From Natronomonas pharaonis DSM 2160 (lineage in GTDB: Archaea; Halobacteriota; Halobacteria; Halobacteriales; Haloarculaceae), in contig NC_007426.1 of the NCBI RefSeq assembly GCF_000026045.1, positions 1,178,001 through 1,242,000 on the forward strand: a stretch of 64,000 nt of DNA, read 5' to 3'. The notes beneath the pieces were generated by a model. The model was not told where the DNA came from. It ran no database searches and worked only from the letters and a program-made list of their open reading frames with translations. Position 1 is the stretch's first letter; each line of letters starts with the position of its first letter. Below are positions 2,368 through 13,358 of this stretch, one piece after another. A program made the translations under genes and the position numbers.

Positions 2368-3630
2368 ATGACGCTTGACCCGGTCCACTTCGACGGTATC
2401 GCAGGGTTGGCTGACCGCATCAGCCACCGCGTCGATGCCACGGACCACGATGCCTTCGCCGAAACAGTCTTCGAGGAGTTTTTAGACCCGCTCTGGCACG
2501 ACGGCGACCGCATCGTCGAACCGCTTGGCGAGTTACGCCGTCGCCGCATCGACATCGAGGACGCCGCGCTTCAAGACGCGCCGTTCCCCACCCAGCACGG
2601 CCTCGATTCAGGCACCATCAACCCGACGACGTTCACGAACGGACTCGTTATCGACATCGCCCACGCCGCGATGGCAGCAGTCCCTTCGGAGCTTTCGCTC
2701 CATCGCTCGCGGACCGTTGTCAAGACCGTCCACTCTAACGACCGGACGGTCGACTGCAACGAAGACGACTGGAGCGGCTTCGACCGCGATGGCCCCGACG
2801 GCGACTACTTTTCTCGCGGGCGTGTCCTGCAAGCGCCACACGTAAACCGGTACGAGGAAGGCGTCGTACACGCGCTCTCGTTGTATCTCGCCGAGGTCGA
2901 ACACGCCCTCGACAACGCTGAGGCGGTCGAGGACCTGCTCGTCCTCGATGGCCCAATCTATCCGAAGGGGTTGCTCGCGTGGTCCGACCGCTCCCCCGAA
3001 CTCGCGGACCTACTGGTGGAAAACGAACGCCCCCGCGATGTCGTCAGCAGCTACCTCCGGCTCGTCGAGCAGTTCGCCGACCGCGGCGTGCCGCTTGTCG
3101 GCGTTGTCAAGAACAGCGCCTCGAAGGCGATTACCCGTGCTGTCCGAAACGAAAAACGCGCCCCGTGGGTCAACGATGCCGCGTTCTTCGAGCGAGTGCT
3201 CCGTCGGACCGGCGACGACGGCGAGCTACGAACCGACGCACTGACCTTCACAAACTGGTTTGTCTCCCGCTGTGGCGTCGACGAGCCGCTGTCGAAACAC
3301 GGCGATGCGCTTGGGCTCGAGCGGAACCGTCCACCGGAGGACTACGAAGTGACGTTTTGCTGTGTTTTCGACCCGCGGACCGAGCTGCTGTTCCGGGTTG
3401 AGGCACCAGCCGTTGTCACCCGTGACCCGGAGCTGCGGGAAGCGCTGACAATGCAGCTACTCCGGGATATTGCCCACGAGCGAGGGCCGCCGCTGGCTGT
3501 CGCCAAGGCCGACGAGTTGGCTCGCATCAGCCGCGACGAAAAGCGGGCGCTCGTCAAGACTATCGAAGAGCGGTTCGACGCCCAGGAGGCGACAGACTAC
3601 AACGACGAGCGCTGGACCGGCCCGGTCTGA
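2368..3630 (+). CDS. nurA: DNA double-strand-break repair nuclease NurA
   Basis: NurA is a 5'-3' nuclease that works with the HerA helicase and Mre11-Rad50 in resecting broken DNA. The 420-residue product has the haloarchaeal NurA pattern. An aspartate-containing strand (GLDSGT near residue 79, metal ligand) is followed by GLVIDIAHAAM, DGPIYPKGLL near residue 193 and GVVKNSASKAI near 246. No herA lies next to it, although the two genes are often paired in archaea, so the partner must be elsewhere. The gene has its own TATA box and is followed by a separately promoted membrane-protein gene. Confidence 0.88.
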   Translation: MTLDPVHFDGIAGLADRISHRVDATDHDAFAETVFEEFLDPLWHDGDRIVEPLGELRRRRIDIEDAALQDAPFPTQHGLDSGTINPTTFTNGLVIDIAHAAMAAVPSELSLHRSRTVVKTVHSNDRTVDCNEDDWSGFDRDGPDGDYFSRGRVLQAPHVNRYEEGVVHALSLYLAEVEHALDNAEAVEDLLVLDGPIYPKGLLAWSDRSPELADLLVENERPRDVVSSYLRLVEQFADRGVPLVGVVKNSASKAITRAVRNEKRAPWVNDAAFFERVLRRTGDDGELRTDALTFTNWFVSRCGVDEPLSKHGDALGLERNRPPEDYEVTFCCVFDPRTELLFRVEAPAVVTRDPELREALTMQLLRDIAHERGPPLAVAKADELARISRDEKRALVKTIEERFDAQEATDYNDERWTGPV

Positions 3631-3698
3631 CGACGCAAAAACGGCGACCGTCGCCGGGAAGCGAAGCGACCTTTGTCCGGGAACACGAAACGAACGGT

Positions 3699-4301
3699 AT
3701 GTCAACGGCTTCCGCCCCGTCCTTTGCCCGTAACCATCCGAAGGCGCTCGCCACCGTCGTGACGCTCGTCGGATACGTCGTGGTCATCGGAACCCTCTAC
3801 GGCGACTTCGGCCTCTACCCGGAGATTTCCGAGTCGACCGTCGACCTGCTGGCACACGCCATCGCCGTGGTCAACGCCGCGACAATCGCCTGCCTCGTCG
3901 CCGGCATCTACTGGATTCGTGCCGACGAGATACAGAAGCACCGCGCCGCAATGCTGGCTGCCTTCGGGCTCATCCTCGTCTTCCTCGTGCTGTACCTGCT
4001 GAAGACGGGGGGCGGCGGCCGCAAAGAGATTCTCGCCGGCGAGCCGCTCCGGGGAGCGTATCTCGCGATGCTCGGCATTCACATCTTCCTGTCGGTCGTC
4101 GCGGTGCCGTTCGTGCTGTACGCCATCACGCTCGGACTCACTCGGACGCCGACCGAACTCAAGTCGACCGCCCACGCCACCGTGGGCCGCATCGCCGTTA
4201 CGACCTGGCTCGTCAGTCTCGTACTCGGCATCGTCGCCTACCTGATGCTGACGTTCTACTACGGACCCGAGCAGGTCGAGTTCGTCCGTGGGATGGCATA
4301 A
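3699..4301 (+). CDS. DUF420 family membrane protein
   Basis: A 200-residue integral membrane protein with about five hydrophobic helices. Family members contain conserved His residues near helix ends; here candidates are in LLAHAIAVVNA, KHRAAMLAAFG, GIHIFLSVVAVP and STAHATVGRIA. DUF420 proteins often occur near heme-copper oxidase genes and are suspected of a role in oxidase assembly, which fits the cox locus 4 kb downstream. A TTTG-type TATA element lies about 26 nt before the ATG. The cyclo-ligase start follows after one base, so the two are probably co-transcribed. Confidence 0.82.
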   Translation: MSTASAPSFARNHPKALATVVTLVGYVVVIGTLYGDFGLYPEISESTVDLLAHAIAVVNAATIACLVAGIYWIRADEIQKHRAAMLAAFGLILVFLVLYLLKTGGGGRKEILAGEPLRGAYLAMLGIHIFLSVVAVPFVLYAITLGLTRTPTELKSTAHATVGRIAVTTWLVSLVLGIVAYLMLTFYYGPEQVEFVRGMA

Positions 4302-4302
4302 A

Positions 4303-5010
4303 ATGTCAGCGACCGATAAGGAGACGCTCCGGTCGCGCATCTGGGACCGGCTTGAATCGGACGGGCTTGCCAGATTTCCATTCCCGCCCCACGGCCGGAT
4401 TACCAACTTCGACGGGGCGGCCGAAGCGGCCCAGCGGGCGATGGACCTGCCCCAACTGGCCGACGCCGGCGCGGTCAAGGCCAACCCCGACGCGCCGCAA
4501 CTGCCGCTCCGGCGGCGGCTGCTCAAGGACGGAACGACCGTGTACATGGCCGTTCCCCGGCTTTCGGAGCCAGCGTGCTTTGTCGAACTCGACCCCGAAT
4601 CGCTCTCGGACCTCGATGCTGCACCGACCGTCTCCCACATGCGGAACTACGGCCGCCCCGTCGAACCCCCGTCGATGCCGTCGATAGACGCTATCGTCGT
4701 CGGTAGCGTCGCTGTCACTCGGGATGGCGTCCGCGTTGGCAAGGGGGAGGGCTACAGTGACCTCGAATACGCCGTCCTGCGTGAGTACGGGCTTGTCGAC
4801 GACGGAACACCGGTCATAACGACTGTCCACGACGTACAGGTTGTCGACGAGACGGTAGCCGCAGCGGCACACGACGTACCGATTGATATCGTCTGCACGC
4901 CGACGGAGACGATACGGCTCGACAGCGGCTCGAAGCCGGACGGCATCGACTGGGACGCCCTTGACGACGACCGACGCGAGGCCATCCCGGTGCTGGAATC
5001 TCTCGATTAA
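4303..5010 (+). CDS. 5-formyltetrahydrofolate cyclo-ligase family protein
   Basis: Expected to convert 5-formyl-THF to 5,10-methenyl-THF with ATP. The 235-residue product carries the C-terminal family pattern GSVAVTRDGVRVGKGEGYSDLEY around residues 135-157 and the proline-rich substrate region RNYGRPVEPPSMP near 110. It resembles the long archaeal/MTHFSD-type branch more than compact bacterial enzymes, so true cyclo-ligase activity is an inference. The in-frame GTG at 4288 lies inside the preceding gene, so the ATG at 4303 is preferred. Its stop shares four bases (TTAA) with the convergent ABC permease gene. Confidence 0.8.
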   Translation: MSATDKETLRSRIWDRLESDGLARFPFPPHGRITNFDGAAEAAQRAMDLPQLADAGAVKANPDAPQLPLRRRLLKDGTTVYMAVPRLSEPACFVELDPESLSDLDAAPTVSHMRNYGRPVEPPSMPSIDAIVVGSVAVTRDGVRVGKGEGYSDLEYAVLREYGLVDDGTPVITTVHDVQVVDETVAAAAHDVPIDIVCTPTETIRLDSGSKPDGIDWDALDDDRREAIPVLESLD

Positions 5011-5786
5011 TCCGTTCTGGGCAGTGCGTACGCGCCCGCGGCGAAGAAGACGACTGCTCCGGCTGCCAGCACCACGAGATTCAGGTACGGGTCGCTGCCG
5101 ACCAACCCGGTTCCGCCGGTGTTAGCGACCGGCTCGTAGGTTGCCGCCCGGAGCCCACGTGCGAAGTACGTCAGCGGCGACAGGTCCAAAAGCGGCACGA
5201 ACCACTCCGGCAAGAGCGCGGGCGGGACGAACGTCTCTGAGAGGAAAAGCAGCGGAATCGCAATCCCGTTTGAGGCCGCAATGGCGCCGTCCTGTGAGTC
5301 CGCGATGCGACCCAGTATCGCGCCGAGCCCACAGAACAGCGCAACGCCGAGCGCGACGTACGGGACCACAAGCAGCGAGAACGTGAAGGCTGCGTCGGTA
5401 ACGAGCAACACGAGCCCAAGGATGAGCAGCGACGCCAGTCCGATGACGACGACGTTGACAAGCGTCTGGGCGAACAGCCACTCCGCTCTGGAAAGCGGCG
5501 TCGTCGCCAGCTTCTCGAAGCGGTTGCCGCTCCGGTGGCGCGCGACCTCACTACCGACCCGAGAAAGCGGGGTAAAGAGCACGACGACTGCCAAATAGCC
5601 GGCGACGTAGTAGCCGGCCGGCTCGGCGAAGAGCCCGCCGCCCGTGGGGTCCGTCCCGACCAGCGCACCGAATATCAATATCAGAATCACGGGGAAAAAG
5701 AACGTGAAGAACACCGCTGTCCGTCTGCGAACGAAGGCATACCACGCTGCCCGCGTCTCGGCTGCGATGCGGCCCGCCCGGCTCAT
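5007..5786 (-). CDS. ABC-2 type transporter permease
   Basis: A 259-residue permease with six predicted membrane helices, the partner of the ATPase gene upstream, which it overlaps by ATGA. The N-terminal helix region AFVRRRTAVFFTFFFPVILIL and the central HRSGNRFEKLATTPLSR coupling segment are typical of ABC-2 exporters. It is the last gene of a leftward group that starts with the heme synthase ctaB, so a role in oxidase maturation (heme, copper or another cofactor) is plausible but unproven. A drug or lipid exporter remains equally possible from sequence alone. Confidence 0.88.
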   Translation of the reverse strand: MSRAGRIAAETRAAWYAFVRRRTAVFFTFFFPVILILIFGALVGTDPTGGGLFAEPAGYYVAGYLAVVVLFTPLSRVGSEVARHRSGNRFEKLATTPLSRAEWLFAQTLVNVVVIGLASLLILGLVLLVTDAAFTFSLLVVPYVALGVALFCGLGAILGRIADSQDGAIAASNGIAIPLLFLSETFVPPALLPEWFVPLLDLSPLTYFARGLRAATYEPVANTGGTGLVGSDPYLNLVVLAAGAVVFFAAGAYALPRTD

Positions 5787-6703
5787 GGCGACGCCTCCGT
5801 AACCGGTTCGCCGCCGGCAGCGACGTCAGTGCCAGTCAGCGCGACATAAACATCGTCCAGCGACGGCTGTCGCCAGACGAGGCCCTCGTAGTCAGCGCCG
5901 GCATCGTCAAGCGCCTCAACGACAGACGGAATCTCCCGCGGACCAGCGGGGACGGCGACGTGGCGCTCGTCGGGGAGTAGCTCGTACCCAGCATCTCGCA
6001 GCGCCGTCTTCGCGGCTGTCCCATCGTCCGCTTCGACGACCAGTCGGCTGTCACCGCCGTGGCGCTCGACGAGCTCCGAGGGCGTCCCGAGCGCGATGAG
6101 TTCACCGTCGGCGAGCATCCCGACCCGGTCGGCGAGTTCTTCGGCCTCTGCCATGTAATGTGTCGTCAGCAGGACCGTCGTTCCGCCCTCGGCCAGCCCC
6201 TCGATGAGCCGCCACAGGTCACGGCGACCGCGGGGGTCAATGCCGGTCGTCGGCTCGTCGAGAATCAGGAGGTCCGGGTCGTTGACGAGCGTCGTCCCGA
6301 CACACGCGCGACGCTTCTGTCCGCCGGAGAGGTTCTCGTAGGCGGTTGCAGCGCTGTCAGTGAGTCCCACATCATCGAGAATGGCGTCGGTATCCCGCGT
6401 CTCGTCGTAGAGCCCGCCGTAGTAGTCGATGAGCTCCCGGGCCGTCAGCCGCTCGGCCGGCGTAAACTCCTGTGGGAGCAGTCCGATTCGGTGCCGGGCC
6501 ACCGATTCGGGGGACTCACCGAAGACGGAAATATCGCCTTCGGCCGCGGTCGTCCCCGTCAGCGCCCGGATGAGCGTTGTCTTCCCGGCTCCGTTCGGCC
6601 CGATGAGCGCGAACACCTCGCCGGCGTCAACCGACAGGGAGACACCGTCGAGCGCCACCGTCTCGCCGTATTGGCGGCGCACGTCGGAAGCACGAATGAC
6701 CAT
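5783..6703 (-). CDS. ABC transporter ATP-binding protein (exporter type)
   Basis: A 306-residue ATPase with Walker A GPNGAGKTT near residue 37, Q-loop LLPQEFTPAE, signature LSGGQKRR, Walker B LLILDEPT and H-loop TTHYMAEAEEL. A C-terminal domain of about 80 residues follows, ending in the WRQPSLDDVYVALTG motif common in ABC-2 exporters of the CcmA/NatA/DrrA group. It overlaps its permease by four bases and lies 54 nt after the Cys-containing membrane protein gene of the ctaB operon. Confidence 0.93.
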   Translation of the reverse strand: MVIRASDVRRQYGETVALDGVSLSVDAGEVFALIGPNGAGKTTLIRALTGTTAAEGDISVFGESPESVARHRIGLLPQEFTPAERLTARELIDYYGGLYDETRDTDAILDDVGLTDSAATAYENLSGGQKRRACVGTTLVNDPDLLILDEPTTGIDPRGRRDLWRLIEGLAEGGTTVLLTTHYMAEAEELADRVGMLADGELIALGTPSELVERHGGDSRLVVEADDGTAAKTALRDAGYELLPDERHVAVPAGPREIPSVVEALDDAGADYEGLVWRQPSLDDVYVALTGTDVAAGGEPVTEASP

Positions 6704-6757
6704 ACAGAACGCCGGTGGGCCGTGGGCTAAAGGCTACTGTTCCAGCCGAGCGCCGCA

Positions 6758-7423
6758 CTACGAGAGCCAGCGCCGAAACTGGCCGAGACCGGGGCGGTAC
6801 GAGAGCAGCCCCACGGTGACGACGAAGACCGCAGTACTAATCGCGTAGCTTTGGAACTCGATTGCGGCCTGTGCGACCGCGCCGCCGCCCCCGACGACAC
6901 CGCCGACGAGCGCGGCGATGACCGGCAGCGTACAGGAGACACACGAGAACAGCCCGAGCAGACCGCCCGCGACGGCGTGTTTCGCCTCGACGGCAGTCAC
7001 GTAGATGAGGTAGGCCAGCACGCCGTAGCCGAACGCCGTGTACGGGATGATGGCAAACTGGAGATACTCGCCGGCATACAGCACTGCTGGGTTCCACCCC
7101 GGTGGAAGCTCAGTCGCCTGTATCAGCAGTCCGGTTGTCGGGCCTGACGCCGGACCGAACAGCCCGCCGACAAAGCCCAACACGAGGAAGTAGCCGCCGG
7201 CGACCGCACCCGCGAGCGCCTTCGTGCGACGGGCGGCGGGCGGTGGCGACACCCGAAGCAGCGCCCAGACGCCGACTGTTATCCAGACGAGCGGCACCGC
7301 CCAGTAGGCGGTTGGCTGCCGTTCTGCGAGCAGAGCGTAGCCGAGTGCGGCCAGTACAAGCGCGTTCGCTACGATGGCCGTGTAGATGAGCGTCCAGTTC
7401 GGGTCCTTGTCAGTGGCCGTCAT
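6758..7423 (-). CDS. Membrane protein of the ctaB operon, with a CxxC in a membrane segment
   Basis: A 221-residue protein with about six hydrophobic helices and no enzyme family I can name. It contains SCVSCTLPVIAALVGG near residue 160. This Cys-x-x-Cys at a helix end resembles metal or thiol sites of assembly factors. The start ATG overlaps the ctaB stop as TGATG; an in-frame GTG one codon upstream (7426) is the alternative. Tight coupling to ctaB suggests a job in heme or copper delivery to cytochrome oxidase; this is inference from position. Similar proteins are, as I recall, conserved in haloarchaeal cox loci. Confidence 0.75.
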   Translation of the reverse strand: MTATDKDPNWTLIYTAIVANALVLAALGYALLAERQPTAYWAVPLVWITVGVWALLRVSPPPAARRTKALAGAVAGGYFLVLGFVGGLFGPASGPTTGLLIQATELPPGWNPAVLYAGEYLQFAIIPYTAFGYGVLAYLIYVTAVEAKHAVAGGLLGLFSCVSCTLPVIAALVGGVVGGGGAVAQAAIEFQSYAISTAVFVVTVGLLSYRPGLGQFRRWLS

Positions 7424-8787
7424 CACACCGCGAGCGAATCGATAAGTATCGCTACGAGCACGAGCCCGAGATAGGCGTTCGAGGCGTGGAACGAGCGGAA
7501 GGCCGCCCGGTCGGTCTGCTCGTAGTGTAGCTCAACGACGGCCCACAGGAAGACGCCGGCCGCAAGCACTGCCGTCGCGGCGTAGAGCCACCCGAGGTCA
7601 GTGACGGCCGCGAGCGCCCCCGCTCCCAGAAGCGTCGCGCCCAAGTAGAAGACGATGTGTTTTCTGGTCTCGGTTTCCCCGCGAACGACGGGCATCATCG
7701 GGAAGCCGCCGCGCTCGTAGTCGTCCTTGTAGGCCAGCGCGAGGTTATAGAAGTGGGCGGGGGTCCACAGGAAGATGACCGCGGCCAGCACGAGTCCGCC
7801 GATGCCGATGGTTCCGGTGACCGCCGCGTAGCCGATGAGCGCCGGCAGCGCGCCAGCAGCGCCCCCGATAACCGTGTTCTGGACGGTGTTGGGTTTGAGG
7901 ATGAGCGTGTACACGACGCTGTAGAAGGCGATGGCGGCGAGACCAAGCGCGGCCGCGAGCAGATTGACAGAGAGGAACGCCCACAGCGAGGCGACGGCCA
8001 GTAGCCCACCGAACGCCAGCGCGTTCGCCACCGGGACCTCGTGGGTCGCAATCGGGCGGTCCGACGTTCGCTCCATCCGCCGGTCGATGTCACGCTCCAG
8101 TACGTGGTTGAACGTTCCGGACGCGCCGATAGCCAGCACGCCACCGCCGAGCGTGAACACGACGGTCCGCACCGTCGGCGTTCCGGCGATGACCATGCCG
8201 GCCCCAGCGACCAGACAGAGCAGCCACATGAGCCGTGGCTTCGTCAGTTCGAAGTACGCCCGCGCGGTGGCCTTGGCTCGGGCCAGCCCTGAAAGCGCCG
8301 GCTGTTCGGTGGCCGCGGGTTCCTCGTCTACCGGCGGTGCCAGTTCCGGCGGTGACTCCGGGGCATCGTCGCTACCGGTCTCAGCTTCGAGATGCCACGC
8401 GAGCCCGACGACGAGTACCGCGAAGATGGCCATCGCGACGAACAGATGGAGGTTTGCAAGTGCCGAGCCGGTCGCCACCAGCGCCCCGAGAACGACCTGT
8501 GCCGGATACAACGCGAGCGCGAGCGCGAGTGTGGTCTTTACGCGGGCTGTCGTTTCGGACCACCCGACGACGGCCGTCGCAATAACGAGCAGACCGACGA
8601 CGGCGGCCACGCCTCGGTGGAGCACAGCGACGGGCACCGATGGGTCCGAGAGGTCCCCTCCACAGAGCGGCCATCCTTGACAGGCGGCCGCCGCGTCGGC
8701 GAGTGCCGCTGTCGCGCCGACGACAACGAGGACGTAGACGCCGACGACCGTCGCGGAAAGCAGCCCCGAGAACCCAGTCGTACGCAT
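7423..8787 (-). CDS. ctaB: Fused compact heme A synthase-like domain and heme O synthase (protoheme IX farnesyltransferase)
   Basis: The 454-residue product has two parts. Residues 1-135 form four helices resembling half of CtaA/Cox15: a Cys-pair loop CQGWPLCGG and His residues in VLHRGVAAVVG and NLHLFVAMAIF. After an acidic Pro/Glu linker, residues ~175-454 form heme O synthase (UbiA family), with ELTKPRLMWLL, the Asp-rich NHVLERDIDRRMERTSDRPI and the second Asp-containing YKDDYERGGFPMMP. CtaB farnesylates heme b; the N-terminal domain might then oxidise heme O to heme A. An upstream GTG or other start near 8811 would fall inside the TATA box, so 8787 is preferred. It diverges from coxB. Confidence 0.88.
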   Translation of the reverse strand: MRTTGFSGLLSATVVGVYVLVVVGATAALADAAAACQGWPLCGGDLSDPSVPVAVLHRGVAAVVGLLVIATAVVGWSETTARVKTTLALALALYPAQVVLGALVATGSALANLHLFVAMAIFAVLVVGLAWHLEAETGSDDAPESPPELAPPVDEEPAATEQPALSGLARAKATARAYFELTKPRLMWLLCLVAGAGMVIAGTPTVRTVVFTLGGGVLAIGASGTFNHVLERDIDRRMERTSDRPIATHEVPVANALAFGGLLAVASLWAFLSVNLLAAALGLAAIAFYSVVYTLILKPNTVQNTVIGGAAGALPALIGYAAVTGTIGIGGLVLAAVIFLWTPAHFYNLALAYKDDYERGGFPMMPVVRGETETRKHIVFYLGATLLGAGALAAVTDLGWLYAATAVLAAGVFLWAVVELHYEQTDRAAFRSFHASNAYLGLVLVAILIDSLAV

Positions 8788-8810: not shown

Positions 8811-8817
8811 TACTTAG
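8811..8817 (-). promoter_or_regulatory. TATA-like element of ctaB operon
   Basis: CTAAGTA, read on the minus strand, is centred about 27 nt from the ATG at 8787. It fits leaderless transcription and rules against a start at 8811. Confidence 0.45.
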
Positions 8818-8887: not shown

Positions 8888-9640
8888 ATGAGAGTCACGC
8901 GCATCGCGCCGGTCGCGCTCGTCGGGGCCCTTGCGCTGCTCGCGGTCGAGCCCGTGGCCGCCCAGAGCACTATCCAAGACGAGCTCATCACCGACCTCAA
9001 CACGACCCTACTGTACGCAGCGATTCCGATAGCCATTCTCGTCGAAGCGATTCTGATATACGCGGTCGTCAAATTCCGGAACAACGACGACCCTAAGCCG
9101 ACCGAGGAGAACCGACGGCTCGAAATTACGTGGACGATTGCAACCGCCATCGTCCTGCTTTTCGTCGGCTTTGCCTCCTATCAGGTGCTCGCTGTCGAGG
9201 AAGTTGGTAACCCACTCGAAGACGAAGACCGAATCGAACCGTCAGTCTCGGAGGACCTCGAGGGGGCTGTCGGTCCGTACGAACACGAAGAGGATGCTGT
9301 CGAAATAGAGCTTGAGGCCTACCGGTACGGCTGGGAAGCGAGCTACGCCGACGGTGAGGTAAGCGAGTTCGACCAGATACGGATACCGACTGACAGACCG
9401 GTTTATATCCACATCTATGCGTCCGACTGGCTCCACATGCTTCACGTGCCGGAGCTCAACCTGAAGCAGTCCGCCTTCGTGGGTGAGTACAACACCATCA
9501 AGACCGAAGCCTACGAAGAGGGGAGCCACCAGTTCTACTGTACAGAGTACTGTGGGACCGGCCACTCCCAGATGAACGGTGAGTTCACGGTCATGGACGA
9601 CGACGAGTTCGACGACTGGCTCGACGAGCAACTCGAGTAA
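8888..9640 (+). CDS. coxB: Cytochrome c oxidase subunit II
   Basis: Carries the CuA electron-entry site of the oxidase. The 250-residue product has a cleavable-looking signal (cleavage near VAAQS at residue ~25), two transmembrane helices (about 37-60 and 77-100) and an extracytoplasmic cupredoxin domain. The copper ligands are visible: His in WLHMLHVPEL, then Cys, Cys, His and Met in YCTEYCGTGHSQM. The domain end is rich in Asp and Glu. It starts the rightward cox gene series and is expected to accept electrons from a copper protein (halocyanin-like) or cytochrome c. Confidence 0.96.
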   Translation: MRVTRIAPVALVGALALLAVEPVAAQSTIQDELITDLNTTLLYAAIPIAILVEAILIYAVVKFRNNDDPKPTEENRRLEITWTIATAIVLLFVGFASYQVLAVEEVGNPLEDEDRIEPSVSEDLEGAVGPYEHEEDAVEIELEAYRYGWEASYADGEVSEFDQIRIPTDRPVYIHIYASDWLHMLHVPELNLKQSAFVGEYNTIKTEAYEEGSHQFYCTEYCGTGHSQMNGEFTVMDDDEFDDWLDEQLE

Positions 9641-9783
9641 GCCCTCGTCGCGCGTTCGACCGCCTGCCGTTTTCCGTTCCTGTTTTCGCTGCCGCTACCA
9701 GTACTGTCGCCGGCCCAACTGTCGCGTCTTGAGGCGCAGCCGTTTTGCGAGGGTTTTTGACCCTCCACTCGAATCAAGCGCGT

Positions 9784-10650
9784 ATGAGTGTCGAGACAGA
9801 CGACGGACACGGCCATGGTCACGGCCACCACCTTCCGGCCGTCGAGGACTGGCCGAAAGGATTCGGTGAGGCCTCTTGGTGGCCCTTCATCGCGGCCCTC
9901 GGTGGGTCGGGACTGTACATCGGTGCAGCGCTTTTCGTACTGGGACAGCCGGAGCACGGCGTCGTCAGCCCGCTTGCTGGCCCGCTCGTTTTCGTCCTGA
10001 GCACCGCCGCGTTCCTCGCCGGCCTGTACGGCTGGCTCTACCACGCCTTCATCGTCGACTTCTGGGCTGGGGAGGCAGACGACCACGGGTTCCCGATGAA
10101 GCTAACAATGCTGTTGTTCCTCGGGACCGAAGTCGCTACCTTCGGAGCCGGGTTCGTATACTACTTTTTCATCCGGGCCGACGCATGGGCCAACCTGCCG
10201 CCGATTGTCGCTGACGGAAACGTCCTGAACGCGCTCGTCATCGCGAACACGCTGATTCTGATAGCCAGTTCGGTTACGATGCACTACGCCCATCACGCGC
10301 TCCTGAAGGACAACCGAAAGCGGTTCGTCCGGCTGCTTGGTGCGACGCTCCTCTTGGGGCTTATTTTCCTCGCCGGCCAGACCTACGAGTACTACGAGTT
10401 CATCACGGTCTACGGCTTCGGACTCACTGACGGCGCATACGGGTCAGCGTTCTATGCGCTGACCGGCCTCCACGGTCTCCACGTCGCTTTGGGCGCTGTC
10501 CTGCTGACGATTCTGTTCATCCGGGCGATATACGGCCATTACTCGCCCGAAAAGCACGTCTCGGTCAGCACCGTCTCGATGTACTGGCACTTCGTCGACA
10601 TCGTCTGGGTGTTCCTCGTCGTGGTCCTGTACGTCGGGGCCATCGTCTGA
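9784..10650 (+). CDS. coxC: Cytochrome c oxidase subunit III
   Basis: The 288-residue, seven-helix subunit III stabilises the catalytic core. Recognisable stretches include FLGTEVATFGAGFVYYFF (with the conserved Glu), LLGLIFLAGQTYEYYEF and ALTGLHGLHVALGAVLL near the C-terminus, ending in YWHFVDIVWVFLVVVLYV. The N-terminus has seven His in DDGHGHGHGHHLP, a possible metal-binding tail. An in-frame start at 9745 is possible, but a TTTTTG element about 28 nt upstream of 9784 favours the shorter form. It lies 143 nt after coxB. Confidence 0.94.
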   Translation: MSVETDDGHGHGHGHHLPAVEDWPKGFGEASWWPFIAALGGSGLYIGAALFVLGQPEHGVVSPLAGPLVFVLSTAAFLAGLYGWLYHAFIVDFWAGEADDHGFPMKLTMLLFLGTEVATFGAGFVYYFFIRADAWANLPPIVADGNVLNALVIANTLILIASSVTMHYAHHALLKDNRKRFVRLLGATLLLGLIFLAGQTYEYYEFITVYGFGLTDGAYGSAFYALTGLHGLHVALGAVLLTILFIRAIYGHYSPEKHVSVSTVSMYWHFVDIVWVFLVVVLYVGAIV

Positions 10651-10719
10651 CTGACGAACGCTTCTGTTTTCGTTGTCGCCAACCGACGCGCCTTTGAACC
10701 GCTGGTACGACACACCGGT

Positions 10720-11130
10720 ATGGGCACGGAGTCCGACTCGGAGCGGATGGCAGACCGATACGACAAGACAAGTCCGTGGCCGCTCGTCATTGTTCTCGGG
10801 CTCGTCCTCAGTGAGATTGGCATCCTGTTCAATGTCTACCCGGTTGCTATTGCCGGCCTCGTCATGTTCGTCGGTAGCGTCTCGGGTATCATCAGCGAGG
10901 CGGGATACGTCGCCTCCCCGTGGCGGCTCGTTTCGGGGCTCGGGCTGTTTCTCGCCGTCGTCGGCGCGTTGGTCATCTGGACGCAACTCGACGCCGTTTC
11001 GGTTGACGCTGCCGCGACGGCCGTCGCTGTCCCCGCAAACGATATTGTCCAGCGTGGCGTGACTATCGCCGCGACCGGCGGGGTACTCGCAATCGGCGGT
11101 GTTGTACTCCCCCGGCTGCGAGGGCGCTGA
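10720..11130 (+). CDS. Small membrane protein of the cox locus
   Basis: A 136-residue protein of unknown function. A hydrophilic N-terminus of about 22 residues is followed by four hydrophobic segments, with SVSGIISEAGYVASPWRLVSG between the second and third, and a short RLRGR tail. A second start at Met10 (10747) is possible, but a TTTG element about 26 nt upstream supports 10720. Its position between coxC and coxA makes it a candidate accessory subunit or assembly factor. I recall similar proteins only from haloarchaeal oxidase loci. Confidence 0.75.
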   Translation: MGTESDSERMADRYDKTSPWPLVIVLGLVLSEIGILFNVYPVAIAGLVMFVGSVSGIISEAGYVASPWRLVSGLGLFLAVVGALVIWTQLDAVSVDAAATAVAVPANDIVQRGVTIAATGGVLAIGGVVLPRLRGR

Positions 11131-11190
11131 CCCCTCCGAGAGCGTGCGGAACCAGTAACCTCTTAATGTCCGTGGACAAATGAGCGCTCA

Positions 11191-11478
11191 ATGAGCAACA
11201 GTGTCTTCGACCGCGAAACGATGCTTGACCTGTCGGTCAACGTGATTCCGCTGGCGGTGCTGCTGTTCTTCATCGCCGCGTTTGCCGTCATTGCGCCGTT
11301 CCCCGGAAACGCTGTCGTCGTCGTTGTCCAGATGAGCATCATTGTCCTTACTGGCTTCGGGCTCGCCGTGCTGACGTACTACTCCGGCAAGGCGGTCGCC
11401 GGTGACGAAACAGACGACCAGATTCCCCCTGGATACTCACGCGAGGACGCGGCCGGACCCGCTCACAAAGAGGAGTAA
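11191..11478 (+). CDS. Small two-helix membrane protein of the cox locus
   Basis: A 95-residue protein with two membrane helices (about 16-38 and 44-66) and a hydrophilic, charged C-terminal tail of 28 residues ending in HKEE. Size and topology resemble small accessory subunits of heme-copper oxidases (subunit IV-like), and it lies directly upstream of coxA. Function is inferred from position. A CTTAAT element about 27 nt before the ATG suggests its own leaderless transcript. Confidence 0.75.
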   Translation: MSNSVFDRETMLDLSVNVIPLAVLLFFIAAFAVIAPFPGNAVVVVVQMSIIVLTGFGLAVLTYYSGKAVAGDETDDQIPPGYSREDAAGPAHKEE

Positions 11479-11594
11479 ACCGCCCCTTACTGGGGGGGCT
11501 CCCCCTCGGTAGCTGCTGCAGCGTCGCCGGAAACCGACAGCGGATAACGCAACCTTTCTTTACCAGTAGTCCTACCGAATGGGTAGAGACATAC

Positions 11595-13358
11595 ATGGCT
11601 GCAGAACAGCTCGCGTTGGCAGTTCTCATGGGGGCGCTCGTGCTTGCGGCGTTTGGGTTCGTCGCCCGCGTGCAGAACTGGCATCTCCCGTTCGTTGGTG
11701 GCCAGCGGGTCGCCACCGACGGCGGTCACGCGCACAAACCCGCTGGTATCACCCGCTGGCTAACGACTGTCGACCACAAGGATATCGGCATCCTGTACGG
11801 CATCTACGGTGTCATTGCCTTCCTCTGGGGCGGCGTCGCCGTCATGTTCATGCGCTTCGAGCTCTGGACGCCCGGAGCAACACACATGAGCACCGAGATG
11901 TACAACGCTTTGCTGACGAGCCACGGCATCACGATGCTGTTCCTCTTCGGGACGCCGATCATCGCGGCCTTCGCGAACTACTTTGTCCCGCTGCTCATCG
12001 GTGCCGACGACATGGCGTTCCCGCGCATCAACGCCATCGCGTTCTGGCTGCTCCCGCCGGGGGCCATCCTCATCTGGGCTGGCTTCTTCACGATGCCGCT
12101 GGACATCGGTGTCGGACCGGCCGAGACCTCGTGGACGATGTACACGCCGCTTTCGGTTGAGCAGTCCAACGCCGGTGTCGACCTCATGCTCCTTGGGCTT
12201 CACTTAACCGGCGTTTCGGCGACGATGGGCGCTATCAACTTTATCGCGACCATCTTCACCGAACGCTCCGACGACGTGACCTGGGCGAACCTCGACATCT
12301 TTAGCTGGACCATTCTCACACAGTCCGGCATCATCCTGTTTGCCTTCCCACTGCTTGGCAGCGCCCTCCTCATGCTGCTGCTCGACCGGAACTTCGGAAC
12401 GCTGTTTTTCGCCACCGAAGGCGGCGGACCCATACTGTGGCAGCACCTCTTTTGGTTCTTCGGTCACCCCGAAGTCTACATCCTCGTGCTGCCGATGATG
12501 GGTCTCGTCTCGTGGATTCTGCCGAAGTTCGCGGGCCGAAAGCTATTCGGGTTCAAATTTGTCGTCTATTCGACGTTAGCAATCGGTGTGCTCTCCTTCG
12601 GTGTGTGGGCACACCACATGTTCGGGAGCGGCATTGACCCACGCATCCGTGCGTCGTTCATGGCGACATCGCTGGCGATTGCGATACCGTCCGCGGTCAA
12701 GACGTTCAACTGGATTACGACGCTCTGGAACGGCAACATCCGACTGACAGCACCGATGCTGTTCTGTCTCGGCTTCGTTGCCAACTTCGTCATCGGTGGC
12801 ATCACCGGCGTTTTCCTCGCGTCGGTGCCGGTGAACCTCCTGCTCCACGAGACCTACTACGTCGTTGGTCACTTCCACTACATCGTGATGGGGATGATTG
12901 CCTTCGCCGGCTTCGGTGCCATCTACTACTGGTTCCCCATCGTTACCGGCCGTATGTACAACCGCCGGCTCGCGAAAGCGCACTTCTGGCTGTCGATGAT
13001 CGGCTCGAACATCACGTTCTTCGCGATGCTGATCGCTGGCTACCTCGAAATGCCGCGGCGGTATGCGACCTACGAGTTCGACCCGAACCTTGCGCCGCTG
13101 ACTGAAGTTACACTGCTGCATCAGGCGATGACAGTCGGCGCTGTCATCATCGCTGTCGGGACGTTGCTGTGGTTCGTCAACGTCGTCTGGTCGTGGAAGA
13201 AGGGCACGGAAGTCACCGACCCCGACCCGTGGAACACCAAAGAATACGGACTCCACGGCCGCGAGTTCGCGTGGTTCGAACAGCAGCTCGCTGCCACTGA
13301 TGGCGGCGACGAGGAGCTTGCGACGGACGGCGGCGAACCAGCCGACGAAGCACAGTAA
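11595..13358 (+). CDS. coxA: Cytochrome c oxidase subunit I (type A heme-copper oxidase)
   Basis: The catalytic subunit reduces O2 to water and pumps protons. The 587-residue product has 12 core helices. Visible ligands and residues: LTSHGITMLFLFG (low-spin heme His), FWFFGHPEVYILVLP with the CuB His, the D-channel Glu and the cross-linked Tyr, WAHHMFGSG with the two further CuB His, and ETYYVVGHFHYIVMG with both heme-axial His. The Glu in GHPEVY points to an A1-type oxidase. The acidic C-terminal tail (AATDGGDEELATDGG) is a halophile-style extension. All three core subunits are therefore encoded here. Confidence 0.97.
   Translation: MAAEQLALAVLMGALVLAAFGFVARVQNWHLPFVGGQRVATDGGHAHKPAGITRWLTTVDHKDIGILYGIYGVIAFLWGGVAVMFMRFELWTPGATHMSTEMYNALLTSHGITMLFLFGTPIIAAFANYFVPLLIGADDMAFPRINAIAFWLLPPGAILIWAGFFTMPLDIGVGPAETSWTMYTPLSVEQSNAGVDLMLLGLHLTGVSATMGAINFIATIFTERSDDVTWANLDIFSWTILTQSGIILFAFPLLGSALLMLLLDRNFGTLFFATEGGGPILWQHLFWFFGHPEVYILVLPMMGLVSWILPKFAGRKLFGFKFVVYSTLAIGVLSFGVWAHHMFGSGIDPRIRASFMATSLAIAIPSAVKTFNWITTLWNGNIRLTAPMLFCLGFVANFVIGGITGVFLASVPVNLLLHETYYVVGHFHYIVMGMIAFAGFGAIYYWFPIVTGRMYNRRLAKAHFWLSMIGSNITFFAMLIAGYLEMPRRYATYEFDPNLAPLTEVTLLHQAMTVGAVIIAVGTLLWFVNVVWSWKKGTEVTDPDPWNTKEYGLHGREFAWFEQQLAATDGGDEELATDGGEPADEAQ

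Follow-up and report, generated by a model that had tools for sequence, protein, structure and literature searches.

Almost all Halobacteria encode a heme O synthase whose N-terminus is a four-helix bundle of the heme A synthase (CtaA) family, in which both histidines and a cysteine pair are kept and the glutamate proposed to be catalytic is absent. We put at roughly one half the probability that this fused bundle is a Glu-less, bis-His heme-binding partner of a separately encoded CtaA and tethers the heme O synthase to that enzyme. The gene was analyzed in the window, by which we mean the whole 64,000-nucleotide stretch of Natronomonas pharaonis DSM 2160 (contig NC_007426.1, positions 1,178,001 to 1,242,000), and compared across haloarchaeal genomes.

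Architecture and gene neighborhood of the fusion

The open reading frame lies on the minus strand (8787..7423), with an ATG at 8787 and a stop codon at 7423-7425, and encodes 454 amino acids, or 462 if counted from a second in-frame ATG upstream, at 8811 (Table 1). Its C-terminal 278 residues are a complete heme O synthase that scores above the curated cut-offs of both TIGR01473 (300 bits versus 210, over profile positions 2-281 of 281) and NF003349 (305 bits versus 246). The heme O synthase match spans residues 177-451, and PF01040 gave 199.6 bits for this domain. No Pfam family match was found in the linker between the two domains. At the N-terminal end, hydropathy revealed four hydrophobic segments within residues ~1-137, which carry the cysteine pair C36-QGWPL-C42, H57-R58 on helix 2, and H114 on helix 4.

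Table 1. Features of the fusion gene and its neighbors (positions in the window)
Feature	Position	Strand	Evidence
CtaA-type four-helix domain, residues 1-137	8377..8787	-	Translation, conservation, motif census, profiles and shuffles, hydropathy
Ala54 codon, equivalent to B. subtilis E57 (H minus 3)	8626..8628	-	Residue census
Linker, acidic and proline-rich, residues 138-176 (39 residues)	8260..8376	-	Sequence
Heme O synthase domain (CtaB/Cox10, UbiA fold), residues 177-454, and stop	7423..8259	-	TIGR01473, NF003349, PF01040
DUF7546 membrane protein, SCVSC motif	6758..7426	-	PF24412, 225 bits
Divergent cytochrome oxidase cluster	8888..13358	+	Pfam COX2, COX3, COX1
coxB	8888-9640	+	
coxC	9745-10650	+	
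DUF7541	10720-11130	+	
DUF6684	11191-11478	+	
coxA	11595-13358	+	

The start codons of the fusion gene and of coxB diverge, with ~100 bp between them, and the stop codon of the fusion overlaps the start of the DUF7546 gene directly downstream. A similar DUF7546-type neighbor is present in genomes G021 and G039, and 46 of 65 fusion loci have one as judged by its motif. The stretch downstream of the fusion (5007-7426, minus strand) holds DUF7546, then a DrrA-like ABC ATPase and an ABC-2 permease, an order that appears again after the fusion in G021 (locus L216) and G039 (L239); DUF7546 and the ABC genes are possibly an oxidase- or heme-related transporter set. The window also encodes, at 3699-4301 on the plus strand, a DUF420 protein (120 bits). 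This family includes the oxidase maturation factor CtaM/YozB, and the gene is perhaps a further one for cox assembly.

Assignment of the N-terminal bundle to the CtaA family

The window protein scored 17.8 bits against PF02628, under the cut-off of 29.9. In the PDB, its N-terminal domain best matched heme A synthase from B. subtilis (6a2j, E=1e-4). We then used separate profiles for the N- and C-halves of CtaA, derived from 83 bacterial CtaA proteins and the B. subtilis CtaA sequence, against which the window domain obtained 39.0 bits for the N-half and 48.4 bits for the C-half. The medians over 109 haloarchaeal fused domains were 52 and 50 bits, respectively, versus maxima of 9-14 bits for 545 hydropathy-preserving shuffles. 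Orthologous fused domains also exceeded the PF02628 cut-off (e.g., 47.0 bits in G004 and 42.1 bits in G031). Since the half-profile scores lie far above those of the shuffles and orthologues pass the Pfam cut-off, membership of the fused N-terminal domain in the CtaA family is secure. The sequence-only reading, made before any database search, had described a half-size CtaA-type domain joined to a complete heme O synthase, and it was right about both. The comparison with CtaA profiles that it had called for bears out the family: the window sequence alone falls under the PF02628 cut-off, but the half-profiles place the domain well over the shuffles. An AlphaFold2 model calculated without an alignment had a mean pLDDT of 48 and was set aside.

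Absence of the glutamate and retention of histidines and cysteines

The E-x-x-H-R motif of CtaA sits on helix 2. Its glutamate (E57 in B. subtilis) has been proposed to be catalytic and termed strictly conserved, on the basis of alignments from which fusion proteins were excluded (PMC12808453). The corresponding residue in the window protein, three residues ahead of the first His, is Ala54, which the sequence-only reading had overlooked. Among the 109 fused domains this position is Ala in 91, Val in 16, Ser in one, and Phe in one, and Glu in none. The fused domain thus has the four-helix bundle, the Cys pair in the first outer loop, and the two histidines on helices 2 and 4 (H57 and H114) of a type 1A heme A synthase, and lacks the E-x-x-H-R with the catalytic Glu. 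Judged by its residues, the bundle by itself is without the one expected for heme O oxidation.

The remaining positions tell a different story from that of the glutamate. C36, C42, W39, P40, H57, and H114 are invariant in a set of 100 fused sequences (100/100 for H57 and H114), and H57-R58 is near-invariant across the larger set (n=109), where H57 is present in 107. This indicates that the fused domain is under constraint. One of the two exceptions has a disrupted reading frame, and the other (G021) has Tyr in place of the first His, a natural variant bearing on ligand roles. The Cys spacing is C-x5-C in all 107 readable fused domains. Because both axial-type histidines and the disulfide-type Cys pair are kept, the fused bundle probably binds heme, either b or o. 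A purely structural remnant of a former CtaA-CtaB fusion, devoid of heme, would agree with the loss of Glu, and bacterial CtaA-CtaB fusions are known (PMC8239418). We regard such a vestige as very improbable nonetheless, given the invariant Cys36, Cys42, Trp39, Pro40, and His114, the near-invariant His57-Arg58, and the fact that, among the fusion matches listed, the bundle is never lost apart from the heme O synthase.

Contrary to the fused domain, the separate haloarchaeal CtaA proteins, which are unfused, have Glu, both histidines, and Arg of the motif set (E-x-x-H-R and the second His) in 60 of 60 aligned sequences, and the spacing C-x6-C in 59 of them. The window genome has its separate CtaA at G000:C1:849310-850146 on the minus strand, 336 kb from the fusion. 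This eight-helix protein (type 1A*; L001, 1177-2067, minus strand) carries C-x6-C and EWFHR in its first half, and its second half matches no CtaA half. Across 39 sequences, no His is conserved in the second half of the eight-helix haloarchaeal CtaA. Apart from the bundle of the separate CtaA, the fused one is thus the only bundle with two His that we found in the CtaA family.

Distribution and co-occurrence with a separate CtaA

The suspicion that other haloarchaea share the arrangement proved correct, as the fusion was detected in 288 of 292 Halobacteria genomes. Both domains share one frame in the fusion matches inspected, barring a few genomes with frame-shifted or split copies, such as G009, G073, G149, and G176. 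A separate CtaA accompanies the fusion in 286 of these 288 genomes. The first search had counted 287, to which a profile search added G039, with a divergent separate CtaA bearing E-W-F-H-R, and from which it dropped G183 and G204, where it found the fused domain alone in assemblies that are 93-94% complete. The fusion is absent from G001, G007, G093, and G128, and in these four genomes neither a separate CtaA nor heme-copper oxidase subunit I (COX1) was found. The association between the fusion and the separate CtaA gave 5e-8 in a Fisher test, in which the genomes are non-independent and three of the four losers belong to one family.

The two genes are unlinked in most genomes. In G021 and G285, which represent two different small families of deep lineages, the gene for the separate CtaA immediately precedes the fusion and runs in the same direction. 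By ORF limits, the separate CtaA of G021 (L216, 1884-2435) overlaps the fused gene (2389-3843), the two forming one apparent operon, and in G285 the separate CtaA similarly overlaps or abuts the fusion. Plasmids or small replicons of haloarchaea carry additional copies of CtaA and the fusion, for example in Natrinema zhouii and Halobaculum sp. XH14; among these copies are L269 1354-1938 on contig C3 of G009 and the plasmid hits H10-H13. The plasmid records H11 and H13 name the fusion product just 'heme o synthase' and leave its N-terminal domain unmentioned.

These patterns bear on the proposal of the sequence-only reading that one polypeptide makes heme O and oxidizes it to heme A. A CtaA family domain joined to heme O synthase invites this view, and published work counts such proteins among the type 1A heme A synthases, as fusions with heme O synthase (PMC12808453). 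However, the Glu that is strictly conserved in the aligned, fusion-free heme A synthases (PMC12808453) is absent from every one of the fused domains, and a Glu-bearing CtaA is encoded alongside nearly everywhere. A bifunctional heme O/heme A synthase is therefore improbable, and the proposal is not supported. The same reading had held that a separate ctaA proven to be the only source of heme A would count against it; a separate ctaA does exist, in the window genome too, which corresponds to that condition in part.

Likeness to bacterial CtaA halves and origin of the fused bundle

Most of the bacterial type 1B CtaA listed combine C-x6-C with (I/V)E(Y/F/W)xHR in the N-half; in their C-half the Cys pair is spaced C-x5-C and the motif is free of Glu, one example being IVFxHR and another, in two Chloroflexota, VAWGHR. 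The fused domains show C-x5-C followed by a Glu-less x-x-G-H-R, often VAWGHR, and so share C-x5-C and a Glu-less x-x-x-H-R with the C-half of the eight-helix type 1B CtaA. This likeness extends to CSTWPLC and VAWGHR in the C-half of L162 versus CTTWPLC and VAWGHR in fused proteins. The placement is different, as the fused domain stands ahead of a heme O synthase and the bacterial C-half (B. subtilis 6A2J) behind an N-half. By motif, then, the fused bundle resembles a C-half, and the separate CtaA an N-half.

The difference between the N- and C-half profile scores had a median of -0.9 bits for the fused domains, favoring neither half, and of 19.6 bits for the separate CtaA, which were assigned to the N-half in 58 of 60 cases. 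Two IQ-TREE C20 trees joined the fused domains with the separate haloarchaeal CtaA (supports 96/67 and 82/89). All fused domains formed one clade (100/99), which makes the Glu-less state as old as the sampled haloarchaea. A phylum-wide search returned no strong CtaA outside Halobacteriales, only two weak matches (G313 and G470), and hence no archaeal outgroup past that order was at hand. AU tests rejected neither the grouping of fused domains with C-halves (p-AU 0.33) nor that with N-halves (p 0.29). These sequence comparisons mildly favor an origin of the fused bundle by archaeal duplication over fission of an eight-helix CtaA. Under fission, the slightly less favored origin, the bundle would descend from the C-half of a bacterial protein; the motifs fit a C-half, but both trees place the fused domain next to separate haloarchaeal CtaA and apart from bacterial C-halves. 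Given this placement, a C-half role of the fused bundle is an analogy unless the gene was split.

A proposed heme A synthase divided between two genes

In the pairing that we propose, the separate Glu-bearing CtaA, in either its four-helix or its eight-helix form, would be the catalytic heme-O half, and the fused bundle would correspond to the C-terminal bundle of bacterial CtaA, which binds heme b. The fused bundle would also be the docking point where heme O synthase could deliver heme O straight to heme A synthase. On the one hand, several observations are consistent with such a partnership. B. subtilis CtaA holds heme b in its C bundle and the substrate heme in its N bundle (PMC7327177), and CtaA is found in a complex with CtaB (PMC9145763). 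Within Halobacteria, Glu is present in every aligned separate protein and in no fused one while His and Cys are kept in the latter, the separate CtaA accompanies the fusion and is missing together with COX1 where the fusion is missing, and the two genes adjoin in G021 and G285. The fused motif is of the C-half type, and no His is conserved in the second bundle of the eight-helix haloarchaeal CtaA. On the other hand, the genes are unlinked in most genomes, the window genome included, and the four-helix CtaA of Aeropyrum pernix is reported to be a homodimer, with no partner of this kind (PMC9145763, PMC12808453). The eight-helix form carries a second bundle of its own, the trees set the fused domain with the separate CtaA, the half-profile scores of fused domains favor C-halves no more than N-halves, and the first His is Tyr in G021.

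The main rival limits the bundle to docking or hand-over. It would bind heme (b or O) and in this way feed or unload the heme O synthase, or anchor that enzyme to oxidase assembly, and would take no part in the heme A reaction, which the separate CtaA would carry out alone as a homo-oligomer. The retention of both histidines and the Cys pair but not of Glu agrees with this role, as do the description of archaeal four-helix CtaA as a homodimer (PMC9145763) and the mostly unlinked genes. By itself, however, it leaves unexplained both the His-less second half of the haloarchaeal eight-helix CtaA and the C-half-type motif of the fused bundle, and we hold it to be rather unlikely.

If the fused bundle and the separate CtaA do pair, haloarchaeal heme A synthase may be an enzyme of two genes, with its Glu-less, heme-binding half covalently linked to heme O synthase and both steps of heme A synthesis joined through this one half of the second enzyme, a wider claim that we advance tentatively and with less confidence than the pairing. 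The fused type 1A proteins would in that case have been wrongly classed as heme A synthases sufficient on their own. Pairing would also mean that Glu-bearing and Glu-less bundles, being separated, allow gene-by-gene tests of the two heme sites of CtaA, whose roles are still unsettled (PMC7327177, PMC12808453).

Relation to known systems

The fusion arrangement is already published. Of the 273 archaeal type 1A heme A synthases considered by Karavaeva et al. (2026, PMC12808453), 154 were reported as fusions with heme O synthase, most of them from Halobacteria, and theirs is the same gene arrangement as ours. That study counts the fusions as heme A synthase, whereas the fused domains examined here never have Glu and are nearly always accompanied by a separate CtaA. 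It also reports the longer haloarchaeal type, 1A*, alongside type 1A in just 10 of 121 cases, in contrast to our per-genome searches, which pair the fused domain with a separate CtaA almost everywhere. We found no published statement that the fused domain lacks Glu in the literature within reach, many subscription papers and supplements lying beyond it. Our results correct the reading of a gene arrangement found in almost all aerobic haloarchaea, in that the fused domain should not count as a heme A synthase.

Compared by description, the compact CtaA of A. pernix (class A/type 1A; PMC12808453, PMC9145763) shares with the fused domain four helices, a Cys pair in the first outer loop, and two histidines; the fused domain differs from it in the absence of Glu, in C-x5-C instead of C-x6-C, and in being joined to heme O synthase. 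The bacterial CtaA-CtaB fusions of Bdellovibrio, Ktedonobacter, and others (PMC8239418) likewise unite both families in one polypeptide, but by description they are among the eight-helix CtaA types that include the Glu-bearing N-half (PMC8239418). The nearest relative of the fused domain in our trees is the separate haloarchaeal CtaA (type 1A* or four-helix; e.g., Nmag_0636 of Natrialba magadii, PMC3403918), against whose profile the fused domain scored 73 bits. In N. magadii, separate ctaA and ctaB have both been predicted (PMC3403918).
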